64,000 bases of DNA from positions 1 through 64,000 of the forward strand of contig NZ_QSUN01000004.1 in the NCBI RefSeq assembly GCF_003438995.1, in the 5' to 3' direction. The position numbers and the translations under genes were made by a program. Positions 1 through 57,720 of the stretch are shown piece by piece (the stretch's first letter is position 1; each line of letters begins with the position of its first letter). Source of the stretch: Bacteroides sp. OM05-12 (lineage in GTDB: Bacteria; Bacteroidota; Bacteroidia; Bacteroidales; Bacteroidaceae). The notes under the pieces were generated by a model. That model was not told the DNA's origin and made no database searches. It saw nothing but the letters and a program-made list of their open reading frames with translations.

Positions 1-190
1 CTTTATTATTAACACACAAATAATACCGCCTATTTTTTAAAGAAGTTTCGTAACTTTATTGTAATATGCTGAGCCAAAATGTGTTGTGGAACATAAAAAC
101 GCCGTCTCTCCGAGAAAGCGGCGGGGAAACGGCACATTAATATATATTGTGCGCGGGAATACCATTTATAAATGGAAAGGAAAAGGCGGG

Positions 191-322
191 AACTTGCGTT
201 TAACCAGGGCAAGACTTGCGTTCGGCCATGCGTAAACGGCAGGTTCACCGGGCGCAAACGATACAAACACCGGGACTGAACGATACAAACTGCAGGGAGA
301 ATGGAAACAAATACAAGGGAGA
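191..322. repeat. Six-unit tandem array, 22-bp period
   Basis: The gap from 1 to 427 holds no gene I can support. From 191 the sequence falls into six successive 22-base units starting at 191, 213, 235, 257, 279 and 301. Neighbouring units share words rather than full identity: ACTTGCGTT opens the first two, ACGATACAAAC opens the fourth and fifth, and GGGAGAA closes the fifth and sixth. The left part of the gap (1-190) holds only a short 14-bp palindrome at 162-175 and a weak GC hairpin near 110-135. A reading frame on the minus strand across 30-350 encodes nothing recognisable and is treated as chance. The function of the array is unknown. Confidence 0.7.
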
Positions 323-354
323 ATAAACGAAGAAAACTGACTGATTTCAACTCC

Positions 355-392
355 TATATATATTTATATTTATATAAATATAAATATATATA
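355..392. terminator. 38-bp perfect AT palindrome, likely terminator
   Basis: Positions 355-392 form a perfect 38-bp palindrome made only of A and T. It is clamped by CTCC (351-354) and GGAG (395-398), which can pair after a two-base bulge. It lies 36 bases past the stop of the lipoprotein gene that reads leftwards, so it is best read as a factor-independent terminator for that gene. It could also extrude as a cruciform. Confidence 0.55.
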
Positions 393-427
393 ACGGAGTG
401 GAAAATTAGGAAGATAGAGGACAATAA

Positions 428-1066
428 CTATCTCCTCTTAAACACAAGTGGAGTATCATCTTTTGCTCTAAGTTCTTTTTTATCATAATCGACATTCATC
501 AACGTATGGCGATCACCGGAAACAAATACCAAAACATCCTCCGCTGATAAATACCATTTCCCTGATTCTGTTTCTCCATCCTTAGCCATAAGTTTATAAG
601 TATGATCGGAATTAAGAGAAAGAGCTTGGTCAACTGCTTGGTATTCGCCGGTTAAAAGTTTATCACCTGACTTAGCCTGTGGGTTAAAGTCTATAAATTG
701 TGTAATAAACAGCTGGTTGTCATTACCTTCTTCTTCAGCTCCTTTTTGTTTTAATATTCCACGGAATTGACCAAACACAGGTTTACCACCTGATTTTAAA
801 TCAGTATATGCTTTTTCTGCATCTAAAAATGCTCCATCTATTACCACTGGAAGATTCACTCCGGTAGATGATTCTTTTAAAACAGCTGCATCCGCCAAGT
901 AACTGAAATTCCCTTCAAAATAATATTCCATTGCAATCGTTATCTGAGTAGCAGGTATAGTGTCATACTGAATTTGGGCAGACTTCTCATTTTTCTTTTG
1001 TCCGCAAGAGCTCACCATCAACACAACAATAGGCAATATCACATAAAATAATTTTTTCATAATCAT
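428..1066 (-). CDS. NlpE-like small lipoprotein
   Basis: Predicted lipoprotein of 212 residues. A short hydrophobic signal ends in VSSC, with the lipidated cysteine at residue 21. The mature part looks like a pair of small beta-rich NlpE-type units: a central stretch FGQFRGILKQKG and a C-terminal stretch with SDHTYKLMAKDG, ESGKWYLSAEDVLVF and a terminal LVFKRR. This pattern resembles the copper-resistance/NlpE-like lipoproteins of Bacteroidota, but I recognise no CxxC metal motif. It has its own promoter candidate just upstream and a palindromic terminator downstream, so it is probably transcribed alone. Residue 3 (Met) is an alternative start. The role, possibly envelope stress sensing, is inferred only. 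Confidence 0.7.
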   Translation of the reverse strand: MIMKKLFYVILPIVVLMVSSCGQKKNEKSAQIQYDTIPATQITIAMEYYFEGNFSYLADAAVLKESSTGVNLPVVIDGAFLDAEKAYTDLKSGGKPVFGQFRGILKQKGAEEEGNDNQLFITQFIDFNPQAKSGDKLLTGEYQAVDQALSLNSDHTYKLMAKDGETESGKWYLSAEDVLVFVSGDRHTLMNVDYDKKELRAKDDTPLVFKRR

Positions 1067-1089
1067 ATTTGTTTTAAAACGTAATCAGA

Positions 1090-1097
1090 CAAAACTA
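1090..1097 (-). promoter_or_regulatory. Bacteroides -7 box for the lipoprotein gene
   Basis: On the minus strand this reads TAGTTTTG, a full match to TAnnTTTG, 24 bases before the start codon. No clear -33 TTTG was found. It lies in the 42-base gap after the acyltransferase gene. Confidence 0.5.
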
Positions 1098-1108
1098 CAT
1101 AATATTTT

Positions 1109-55065: not shown

Positions 55066-55073
55066 TATTTTTG
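55066..55073 (+). promoter_or_regulatory. -7 box for GH97
   Basis: TATTTTTG, full TAnnTTTG match, 80 bases before the GH97 start. It would place the hairpin at 55091-55122 in the transcript leader. Confidence 0.4.
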
Positions 55074-55090
55074 ACATAAATTACAAAGAC

Positions 55091-55122
55091 AACGCGGACT
55101 TAGTTAACATAAGCTCCGCGTT
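55091..55122 (+). other. Hairpin in the leader of GH97
   Basis: AACGCGGACTTA pairs with TAAG, one bulged base and TCCGCGTT, leaving the 7-base loop GTTAACA. It is not followed by a T run. It could be a leader structure of the GH97 transcript or the remains of a terminator of the gene before it. Confidence 0.45.
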
Positions 55123-55153
55123 ATCTGTATAATAAACAAATAATTTAGAAGAT

Positions 55154-57289
55154 ATGAAAAAACATTTATGGTTCCTATTTATGATATGTACCATGTGCGC
55201 AAACGCGGTCACAGTCGAATCTCCCGACACAAATATCAAACTGGTATTTGAAGTAACCAACGGAGTTCCCACTTACAATTTAATATATAAAAATACACAA
55301 GTAATTAAGGACAGCCATCTGGGAATAGAGTTGGTAGATGCAGCTCCAATGATGGATGGTTTTGAATTATTAAGTTCGGAAACATCAAGCTTTGATGAGA
55401 CTTGGCAGCCGGTATGGGGAGAGGTCAAGAACATAAGAAATCATTATAATGAACTATTGGTAGAGTTGAAACAACCGTCCTCGGATCGTTTTATGAATTT
55501 GCGTTTTCGTGTGTATAATGAAGGTATCGGCTTTCGATACGAGTTTCCTCAACAACAGAATCTGGTCTATTTCGTCGTCAAAGAAGAACATTCTCAATTT
55601 GCCATGACGGATGATCATACAGCATGGTGGATTCCGGGCGATTATGACACACAAGAATATGATTATACGGAATCTAAACTGTCGGAAATACGAAGATTAA
55701 TGAAAGGAGCAATCACGAAGAATACTGCTCAGACTTCTTTCTCTCCGACAGGCGTACAGACTTCTTTGCAAATGAAAACAGCAGAAGGCCTGTATATCAA
55801 CTTTCATGAAGCAGCTTTAGTGGATTATTCTTGTATGCATTTAAACCTGGATGACAAGAATCTTATTTTTGAATCCTGGCTGACCCCGGATGCCATAGGA
55901 AACAAAGCCTATATGCAATCGCCATGTAAGACTCCCTGGCGCACAATCATGGTTAGTGATGATGCACGGGAAATATTAGCATCCAACTTGATACTGAATC
56001 TGAACGAACCTTGCAAATATACCGATACATCATGGATTAAACCGGTGAAATATGTCGGTGTATGGTGGGAAATGATTGCAGGTGGGAAACCATGGGCATA
56101 TACTTTTGATTTGCCTTCCGTGAAGTTAGGAGAGACAGATTATACCAAAATGAAACCTAACGGACTTCATCCTGCCAACAATGAGAATGTAAAAAGATAT
56201 ATCGACTTTGCGGCAAAACATGGTTTCGACCAAGTATTAGTCGAAGGTTGGAACATCGGTTGGGAAGATTGGTTTGATAAGTCAAAAGATTATGTATTCG
56301 ACTTCGTAACTCCCTATCCTGATTTTGACATTAAAATGCTAAATGATTATGCACATTCAAAAGGTGTACGTTTGATGATGCACCACGAAACATCCGCTTC
56401 TATCCGTAACTATGAGCGTCACATGGAAGAGGCTTATAACTTGATGAATAAATATGGTTACAATGCAGTAAAGAGCGGTTATGTGGGCAATATGATTCCA
56501 AGAGGTGAACATAATTACGGTCAATGGTTGAACAACCACTATTTATATGCGGTAACAGAGGCAGCCAAGCATAAAATTATGGTCAATGCACATGAAGCAG
56601 TACGTCCTACAGGACTTTGCCGGACTTACCCTAATTTAATTGGAAATGAGGCTGCACGCGGAAATGAATACGAGGCTTTCGTAGGCAGCAAACCTTTTCA
56701 CACAACAATCCTCCCTTTCACCCGTCTACAAGGTGGCCCGATGGATTATACTCCGGGAATCTTTGAAATGGAAATAAATAAACTGAACCCTAATAGCCAT
56801 TCGCACGTAAATTCAACATTAGCCCGCCAGTTAGCACTTTACGTAACCATGTATAGTCCGTTGCAAATGGCTGCGGATATTCCGGAGAATTATGAACGGT
56901 TCATGGACGCCTTTCAATTTATTAAAGACGTAGCTGTGGATTGGGATGACAGTAAATATCTTGAAGCCGAACCGGGACGTTATATAACTGCTGCCCGCAA
57001 AGCAAAAGGCACAAATAATTGGTTCATCGGTTGCACCAGCAGTGAGCATGGCCATAACTCAACTTTAAAGTTAGACTTCTTGGATTCCGACAAGAAATAT
57101 ATTGCCACTGTATATGCCGACGCTAATGATGCGAATTATAAGACAAATCCACAAGCCTATACAATTTATCAAGGCATTGTTTCTCCTAAAACTGTCCTGA
57201 AGTTAAAAGCAGCTCCGGGAGGTGGTTATGCAATTAGCATTATGGAAGCCAAAGATAAAGAACAATTAAACGGCCTGAAAAAATTATAG
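55154..57289 (+). CDS. GH97 glycoside hydrolase (SusB-type)
   Basis: Exported enzyme of 711 residues with a signal [20 protein letters not shown]97 has an N-terminal beta-sandwich, a central barrel and a C-terminal beta domain. Three carboxylates are placed as in the inverting alpha-glucosidase SusB: Glu412 in MMHHETSAS, Glu481 in [10 protein letters not shown] and Glu505 in [13 protein letters not shown]. Their spacings of 69 and 24 equal those I recall for SusB Glu439, Glu508 and Glu532, which argues for the inverting group and against the retaining, Asp-based alpha-galactosidase group. It would cut alpha-glucosyl ends, probably in the periplasm. The linkage is not predictable. Confidence 0.93.
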
Positions 57290-57301
57290 ATAAAATAAGA
57301 G

Positions 57302-57414
57302 CTATCTAATAAGCCTTTAATAGTGAGGATATGTCAAAGTATTCGGGTTCTCCATTCAAGTGGAGGAACTAAGGTACTTTGGAATATCCTCTTTTTTAAA
57401 GGCTCACCAGATAG
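57302..57414. other. Long nested hairpin after GH97
   Basis: Twelve bases after the GH97 stop a 113-base segment folds into one long arm of about 38 pairs. Stems: 57302-57307/57409-57414, 57312-57320/57396-57404, 57325-57332/57384-57391, 57335-57341/57375-57381, and 57347-57354/57361-57369 with a six-base loop TTCAAG and one bulged G. The small internal loops between stems are unequal. It could be a terminator-like RNA, a small structured RNA, or a palindromic mobile element remnant. Confidence 0.65.
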
Positions 57415-57499
57415 TCTTCTCAAGGGACTTTAAGAATCGTCTAAGCTTATATTATAATTTTTCTCCTAATGTCTAACCGAATTCTCCCTGACGAAGTTC

Positions 57500-57720
57500 C
57501 CGAAAGACGTAGGGCATTCGACAAGAAGACGTAGTGCGTCATAGGTAAAGACGTAGCGTGTTTTTATGAGCCATGCAAAAAGCGCGACAAATTTTCAACG
57601 TTCATAAGGGAGATTAATGTCACAAGTTTTCTCATTTGAGGCTTTTTTAAAGATAAAGCGTTGATAATGAGCCCCGCGACAAAAATTTCGTAGGGGGTAT
57701 AAAATACTATATAAATAGAG
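57500..57720. repeat. 220-bp dispersed intergenic element, copy B
   Basis: Near twin of the element at 13924-14143, same orientation, again between two convergent genes. Three 22-base units have anchors at 57507, 57529 and 57551 (ACGTAGGGCA, ACGTAGTGCG, ACGTAGCGTG). They are followed by the same conserved block (CATGCAAAAAGCGCGACAAA, GTTCATAAGGGAGATTAATG). The match fades after about 57705. The 586-base gap around it holds the nested hairpin on its left and a terminator on its right. Confidence 0.75.

Follow-up and report, generated by a model that had tools for sequence, protein, structure and literature searches.

Intergenic arrays with a 21-23-bp step in Bacteroidales: candidate helically phased sites of a putative DNA-binding protein

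The first 64,000 nucleotides of contig NZ_QSUN01000004.1 of Bacteroides sp. OM05-12 (the whole stretch analysed, called here the window) contain five short non-coding arrays, A1 to A5, whose units follow one another at a step of 22 bp. We found that they belong to a class of Bacteroidales repeats which is intergenic, mostly few-copied and nearly constant in period within the families that we traced. Four such families (the pair A2/A5 of the window, two families of Bacteroides graminisolvens and one of a draft genome, G005) are dispersed, occupying from 2 to hundreds of places. Judging from sequence, the arrays may be helically phased sites of a putative protein, carried on dispersed elements that come closest to the BrickBuilt repeats of Porphyromonas gingivalis; this is the explanation that we prefer, and we would put its chance somewhat below even.

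Periods of 15 to 30 were scanned with a statistic that sums matches over 3-5 successive units, the stretches scored being 60-350 for A1 and 33117-33262 for A3 (AT-rich palindromes excluded) and the whole gaps for A2, A4 and A5. A period of 22 came out on top in each of A1 to A5 (z of 7.3, 7.2, 6.6, 7.2 and 6.2, respectively), and a comparison of lags also gave 22 as the best in each. For every one of the arrays, 0 of 500 dinucleotide shuffles matched the observed score; A5 is the weakest, and its largest shuffle equals 6.2 after rounding. Twelve further non-coding stretches, which make up a part of the gaps in the window, reached a best z of at most 4.4 at periods 17-30. Tandem Repeats Finder (TRF) reports three of the five arrays. 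Thus, the five arrays and their 22-bp step, as described in an earlier sequence-only reading of the window, are real.

That reading had also taken the five to be unrelated, which is refuted by two of them. A2 (13923..13988, forward strand; three 22-bp units around AAGAYGTAGYGC) and A5 (57497..57562, forward strand; three 22-bp units) align over 276 columns with a score of 273.5, against a shuffle maximum of 31, and they are identical in 50 of 68 columns of the array part and in 126 of 147 columns of the tail. A2 and A5 are two copies of one dispersed element of about 270 bp, so that four arrays are independent, not five. The first copy (13875..14144, forward strand), in which the array heads the tail, lies between dnaG and folE, and the second (57450..57722, forward strand) has array and tail in the same order. 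The distance between dnaG and folE is 399 bp in the window and 8-236 bp in nine relatives, measured there between the ends of protein matches (9 of the 10 relatives with folE show dnaG in the fetched stretch); most simply, the A2 element would have been gained in the lineage of the window. Empty sites are seen both here and for a B. graminisolvens element described below, with flanks too diverged to place the element ends at which target-site duplications would lie. A search of nine relatives, made without a positive control and therefore weak, gave no match to the element, and in 301 Bacteroidaceae genomes its only traces were two fragments, one of 40 and one of 27 bases. Plasmid and phage collections gave no match to it, and viral contigs none to its exact 20-mer. 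In B. xylanisolvens the dnaG/folE gap (L216, 2100-2230) shows a 22-bp pattern of its own, though a weak one (z 4.3).

The class was delimited in 80 Bacteroidales loci around one orthologous gene, some gaps of which are orthologous and hence non-independent. After removal of short-period repeats (8 gaps), each of 565 gaps was assigned its single best period: 22 was found in 29 gaps, 23 in nine, 21 in eight, 24 in one and 20 in none, with no other period in more than two, so that 46 of the 565 gaps carry an array at 21-23 bp. Lag 22 is therefore commoner than lags 20, 21 and 23 (29 against 0, 8 and 9), so that the first of the two refuting conditions set by the sequence-only reading does not apply. 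A count of lag-22 match runs with a score of at least 16 in 611 gaps (the 80 loci and the window) gave 32, compared to 0.2 in shuffles; lags 21, 23 and 14 gave 12, 8 and 10, and most others 0-2. That count was made without removing short-period repeats, some of which are still present in the earlier tallies, the palindrome count given below included, mostly at lags 14 and 21; one tally also includes two runs of N. Heptamer repeats (L011 at 8019 and 17121, L010 at 12365, L006 at 7426) imitate a 21-bp period in such lag counts.

Arrays at periods 21, 22 and 23 numbered 2, 3 and 1 in Phocaeicola vulgatus (118 gaps, 400-kb sample) and 5, 1 and 3 in B. graminisolvens (153 gaps, 400 kb), where periods 14 and 18 added one each. 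In the window 4 of 17 gaps have an array, all at period 22, A1 being masked by a spurious open reading frame (ORF). Two outgroups, Escherichia coli (200 kb) and Sinorhizobium meliloti pSymB (400 kb), had no array at 21-23 bp in 223 gaps and five at other periods. Chance was rejected as the origin of the arrays on the shuffle comparisons and on these gap tallies, and short-period repeats were rejected as their source. Within the 80 loci 18 arrays have three units, 20 have four, four have five and two have six, the detection starting at three units. A palindromic consensus at p<=0.05 was found in 19 of 57 arrays, and dyad units at a fixed two-turn step are present in G005 and B. graminisolvens. 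The cap motif TTTGC...GCAAA, seen in those two genomes, was not among the 12 most enriched 5-, 6- and 7-mers of 142 flanks of 71 arrays, and we thus rejected it as a universal cap.

That the array is a module within a constant architecture is seen most clearly in B. graminisolvens (G001). The dyad TGTACAYCCGGGTGTACA, with at most three mismatches, has 92 and 96 sites on the two strands of this genome (control 0), 43 and 37 in Bacteroides sp. 224 (G007), and 1-6 in five other genomes (controls 0-3). It forms a family with a 23-bp step, usually four units and recurring caps, present at no fewer than 27 places in G001; twenty of these were fetched, and together with L001 and L146 they make up the 22 copies compared. 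The unit TGTACATGGGGGTGTACA is third in most copies, with other positions in L203, L204, L209 and L211. A tail with TTGGTGATAC repeats follows the array in 13 of the 22 copies and stops at about one point, giving an element of about 350 bp with its tail, while several other copies are tail-less. L004, L005 and L006, in which the orthologous gap is shorter, lack the copy that lies downstream of the diaminopimelate (DAP) dehydrogenase gene. The 400-kb G001 sample holds two more TTGGTGATAC tails, and these follow a 21-bp array around AAAACATAACC (three units in L136, four in L140); a third copy of the 21-bp array, with three units by eye, stands on a contig filed as viral. The same tail thus stands behind two unrelated arrays of different period, which speaks for a module whose sequence changes while the architecture remains. 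The tail was not found in plasmids. An element of this type with 21-bp array and TTGGTGATAC tail, about 600 bp long, is seen at L136 8380-9050, L140 231-950 and L226 3600-4400. In A2/A5 and in both B. graminisolvens families, the array heads an element of 270-600 bp with a conserved tail and no long reading frame. As these families step at 23 and 21 bp, the strict common 22-bp register proposed at first is not supported, and a universal one is rejected: families exist at 21, 22 and 23 bp.

The densest family was found in G005, a 1.7-Mb draft Bacteroides metagenome-assembled genome (MAG) which is the source of locus L043 and the sole member of its genus here. With at most two mismatches, AAACTRTATAYAGTTT occurs in it 760 times per strand, and the reversed pattern 7 times. 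A sample of 347 kb in 20 contigs (L111-L130), selected for having hits, contains 495 sites with at most four mismatches, 125 of them inside predicted ORFs (reversed control 80). Spacings of 22, 44, 66 and 88 bp number 208, 136, 65 and 5, a ratio of about 3:2:1 over the first three, which indicates mostly four-unit arrays. A weight matrix gave 173 site groups. Four units are present in 74 of them, three in 22, two in 17, five in ten, six in one and seven in two, and the remaining 47 consist of a single unit; predicted ORFs contain 46 of these groups. An array at z>6 is present in 75 of 97 gaps of at least 150 bp, and at a lower threshold in 52 of 54 gaps of at least 300 bp. In a set of 192 units chosen without regard to score, 150 linker centres read AA or TT and 21 read AT or TA. 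Other Bacteroidaceae have TATATA-cored 22-bp matches with other half-sites (48 of 301 genomes; 96 in G011, 71 in G097, 23 in G225 and 22 in G108); the reversed control for this pattern is not clean, TATATA being nearly shift-symmetric. Fetched stretches confirmed arrays in G011, G097, G225 and G064; those of G108 contain different 22-bp arrays and those of G292 none. G108 has near-perfect 22-bp arrays of at least five units with no obvious dyad (L190 10760-10940, L189 9700-9850), which are possibly young amplifications.

In the window A2, A3 and A5 lie in convergent gaps, A4 between two forward-strand genes, and A1 at the window edge beside a minus-strand gene; three of the five are thus in tail-to-tail gaps, as originally stated. 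Pooled outside G005, arrays occupy 25 of 179 convergent gaps, compared to 40 of 674 gaps of other orientation (p 0.0007 by Fisher's test; odds ratio 4.2 when stratified by length). This set takes in the window which raised the idea as well as orthologous gaps, and an insertion also lengthens the gap in which it stands. For the 80 loci by themselves the figures are 17 of 121 against 29 of 444 (p 0.013); leaving out five orthologous loci changes them to 14 of 110 against 28 of 407 (p 0.07). P. vulgatus and B. graminisolvens together have arrays in 5 of 53 convergent gaps and in 10 of 218 others (p 0.18). G005 shows no convergent preference (13 of 17 convergent and 68 of 115 other gaps have an array); among its gaps of at least 30 bp, site groups of any size stand in 19 of the 20 convergent ones, in 16 of the 22 divergent ones and in 66 of the 110 codirectional ones. 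The preference for convergent gaps, about twofold, is suggestive; it weakens from the pooled data to the subsets, and the second refuting condition, an absence of such a preference, has not refuted the reading either. Since arrays occur in divergent and codirectional gaps too, the proposed role as boundaries of converging transcripts does not apply generally.

The other three arrays of the window differ in their layout. A1 (192..335) has about 5-6 degenerate units (best block 226-335, lag-22 run 192-324), the early ones inverted relative to the later ones by eye; A3 (33120..33185) has three units of the CGTT...CATGG type and ends in the inverted end TGGTGAAACG; A4 (52631..52696) has three units and is closed by an inverted repeat (52676..52726) in which the last unit is partly repeated as its reverse complement. 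No strand is assigned to these arrays, to that inverted repeat or to the two AT-rich palindromes, of which one (351..398) follows A1 and precedes the end of the minus-strand gene 428-1066, and the other (33264..33299) follows A3 and precedes the end of the DAP dehydrogenase gene. The order of array, palindrome and minus-strand gene end was thus correctly described for A1 and A3. The two palindromes (TATATATTTATA...TATAAATATATA) resemble each other, with differing caps, and pairwise alignment of A1 with A3 exceeds the shuffle maximum in the palindromes alone. The 8 of 10 pairs other than A2/A5 and A1/A3 stay below the maximum of 200 shuffles, including A1/A4, whose alignment of 28.0 is above the 95% shuffle level on both strands (25.5 and 24.0). 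Homology of A1 or A3 to the B. graminisolvens element is not claimed, as the alignments above shuffles are gappy and cover AT-rich stretches. The DAP dehydrogenase of the window places it in Bacteroides in the wide sense and, among the 80 loci kept of 473 relatives, is closest to that of B. graminisolvens, at 89% identity; the window also encodes SprA and proteins sorted by the type IX secretion system (T9SS). The neighbours at 428-1066 and 5364-13801 are ordinary (an NlpE-C lipoprotein, an AcrB-type efflux operon with a TetR regulator, and dnaG). TRF also found a 264-bp tandem duplication (79% matches) at 54274-54812, within ORF 52876-55029.

How could such arrays arise and be kept? The sequence-only reading had preferred a common process to one ancestral sequence; ancestry explains a part, namely A2/A5 and the dispersed families. 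Among its three candidate processes a putative phased DNA-binding protein fares best. In the explanation that we prefer, each unit would be a putative site of a dimeric DNA-binding protein. Two helix turns (21-23 bp) would be the smallest step that places adjacent dimer sites of 16-18 bp on one face of DNA, and cooperative binding of three to four dimers would set this step, leaving the recognised sequence free to change together with the protein. The elements may then spread into gaps as non-autonomous insertions, which some lineages would retain in most of their gaps.

Several observations weigh against this explanation. A1, A3 and A4 have no second copy within the window, the A1 unit was not found in seven relatives, and no significant palindrome was detected in A2-A5, the four window arrays tested. 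Inverted ends were not found in A2, A5 and five B. graminisolvens copies, the end scores (with ends set by eye) being no better than those of shuffles. The period is not strict, as one TATATA-cored array of G011 steps at 23 bp and two at 22 bp; some arrays are long, with about seven units in L071; and very stable hairpins, which a row of protein sites does not need, occur in L005, L038, L053 and L077. Units of the same index in different G005 arrays are 0.615 identical and those of different index 0.599, so that copying is invisible there; such near-equality means that these arrays are old or independently selected.

Moreover, an argument which we had counted in favour of dimer sites is withdrawn. 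Symmetric positions of G005 units are complementary less often than under independence (z -3.8 within units, -7.1 across linkers), and this avoidance of pairing had seemed to us to prove dimer sites. However, the value within units falls to z -1.4 once 192 internal units are used whatever their score, and the z of -3.8 is thus mostly an artefact of score-selected sites. The covariation that remains argues against RNA stems and gives no positive support for a protein. We accordingly lowered the weight of the protein-site explanation slightly, from an even chance to its present place, and slightly raised those of slippage and of RNA hairpins.

An unlikely explanation, and still the most serious rival, is a purely mutational origin, in which replication or repair makes two-turn tandem duplications that are tolerated in gaps and not in genes, with no need for any binding protein. 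It would account for units that differ among loci, for arrays that are long and near perfect (L190, L189, L071), and for copies of one element that differ by whole units. It may also fit the orthologous arrays of L004 and L005, whose flanks share 95% protein identity: by eye, in this one case, the arrays align unit by unit with the palindromic core kept, while the linkers are altered jointly in all copies and the first copy is inverted. A joint linker change would result from gene conversion among the units as well as from co-evolution with a protein that binds them, and the common arrays of L030/L040 and L013/L019 have drifted without one. Simple length-biased slippage should leave a two-copy stage, and such a stage is rare. 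In 2.58 Mb of Bacteroidales sequence outside G005 we found four near-perfect two-copy duplications of 20-24 bp against 30 array events of at least three copies at 21-23 bp, or three against 29 when the duplications are limited to 21-22 bp. Furthermore, the dyads, the usual size of four units and the phase that many G005 arrays keep rigidly despite their divergence point to selection, and the period differs between families.

It is improbable that the arrays act as RNA or cruciform structures, i.e. as tandem hairpins at transcript ends serving as terminators, RNase III sites or messenger RNA stabilisers, for which 22 bp would correspond to two A-form turns. Folding is indeed better than in dinucleotide shuffles (the 57 arrays tested in the 80 loci have a mean z of -3.7, and at least one strand is below -2 in 39 of them), L010 and L011 resemble terminator hairpins at a convergent gap by eye, and some convergent preference exists. 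Permuting the order of units, however, leaves the hairpin score practically alike (13.3 against 13.0 in 45 arrays, with a rank of at most 0.1 in 6 of 45), so that repeats and palindromes by themselves account for it, with few exceptions (L006, L072). In G005 there is no excess of pairing, that along the array centre being unseen in 71 four-unit arrays (z -3.4), and the site groups in 16 of its 22 divergent gaps do not suit transcript ends. The window has no Rfam match at gathering scores. With fold scores equal to those of unit-order permutations and no excess pairing in G005, we rejected RNA hairpins as the selected feature.

A host chromosome organiser seems to us just as doubtful. Here a nucleoid or boundary protein would act on four phased dyads in the majority of gaps, following the pattern of G005, and dispersed elements elsewhere would be reduced or hijacked forms of it. 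G005 itself is the best case, with its arrays in gaps of every orientation and in nearly all of the longer ones, diverged in sequence while core, phase and unit number are kept; the TATATA-cored arrays of further Bacteroidaceae point the same way. G005 is, however, one draft MAG with contigs chosen for hits, the TATATA pattern suffers from its control and from the results for G108 and G292, and arrays occupy 5-8% of gaps in the other samples, where their units are of many types, which is not what a single host system would give. Finally, palindromes of the repetitive extragenic palindromic (REP) or REPIN type, moved by REP-associated tyrosine transposases (RAYT), are a very improbable source: short palindromic units at hundreds of intergenic places and four Y1_Tnp matches in Bacteroides sp. 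224, which has the B. graminisolvens family, would suit them, but Y1_Tnp (PF01797) was not found in five of nine genomes (G001, G003, G004, the 1.7-Mb draft G005 and G008; one to four matches in the other four) and the units stand head to tail in rigid register.

A broader and rather unlikely extension of the protein-site explanation may still be worth stating. Bacteroidales would possess a fast-evolving DNA-binding system in which the geometry, about four dimer sites at two turns, is the constant, while specificity drifts and the sites of an array or of a genome change together; in some species it might cover most intergenic gaps and serve as a chromosome-wide scaffold or insulator, and elsewhere persist as scattered families of mobile elements, those of the window included. 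If one protein family binds all units, its site specificity would have turned over fast under a fixed geometry. If the arrays organise the chromosome in G005-like species, they would represent a nucleoid system on which no paper was among those listed in our literature searches. Even the modest reading covers a recognisable share of intergenic repeats in Bacteroidales genomes; a local oddity thereby becomes a class whose members can be counted in each of them, with an experimental handle.

No paper on a Bacteroidales-wide class of 21-23-bp intergenic arrays was among those listed in our literature searches, a weak negative as most subscription journals lie outside them. Several protein sites in helical phase are known from the TnsB sites of Tn7 and from Lrp octamer sites; no such gene is linked to any array here, and this is an analogy only. 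A 77-bp inverted repeat at the capsule locus of P. gingivalis, studied with the HU protein PG0121 (PMC3969353), likewise joins an intergenic inverted repeat of Bacteroidales to a DNA-binding protein, but it concerns one locus and is a lead only. REP and REPIN sequences, as presented in PMC3116915 and PMC3733652, share with our class the many short intergenic palindromes per genome and differ from it in that the present units keep a 21-23-bp head-to-tail register and that RAYT was not found in G005 and G001. The nearest system is BrickBuilt of P. gingivalis. According to Klein et al. (2015, PMC4596501), it consists of intergenic, imperfect 23-nt repeats placed head to tail without spacers at 19 places, with a leader and a tail; arrays of 1 to 22.8 repeats expand and contract by whole units, each unit is partly conserved and partly variable, and there are 12-bp inverted ends of the IS5 type and, in some cases, target duplications. 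Direct repeats of 22 and 41 nt in strain W83 are cited there as well. The class described here shares with BrickBuilt its Bacteroidales hosts, its intergenic location, its imperfect head-to-tail repeats of about 22-23 nt set without spacers, units that are conserved in one part and variable in another, and changes in copy number by whole units, a likeness of architecture; dispersed copies with a common leader or tail are seen in A2/A5 and the B. graminisolvens families, not for A1, A3 and A4. Unlike BrickBuilt, the present arrays mostly have 3-5 units, with no inverted ends found in the copies examined, and they vary the unit between and within genomes, to the point that one tail stands behind two unrelated arrays.

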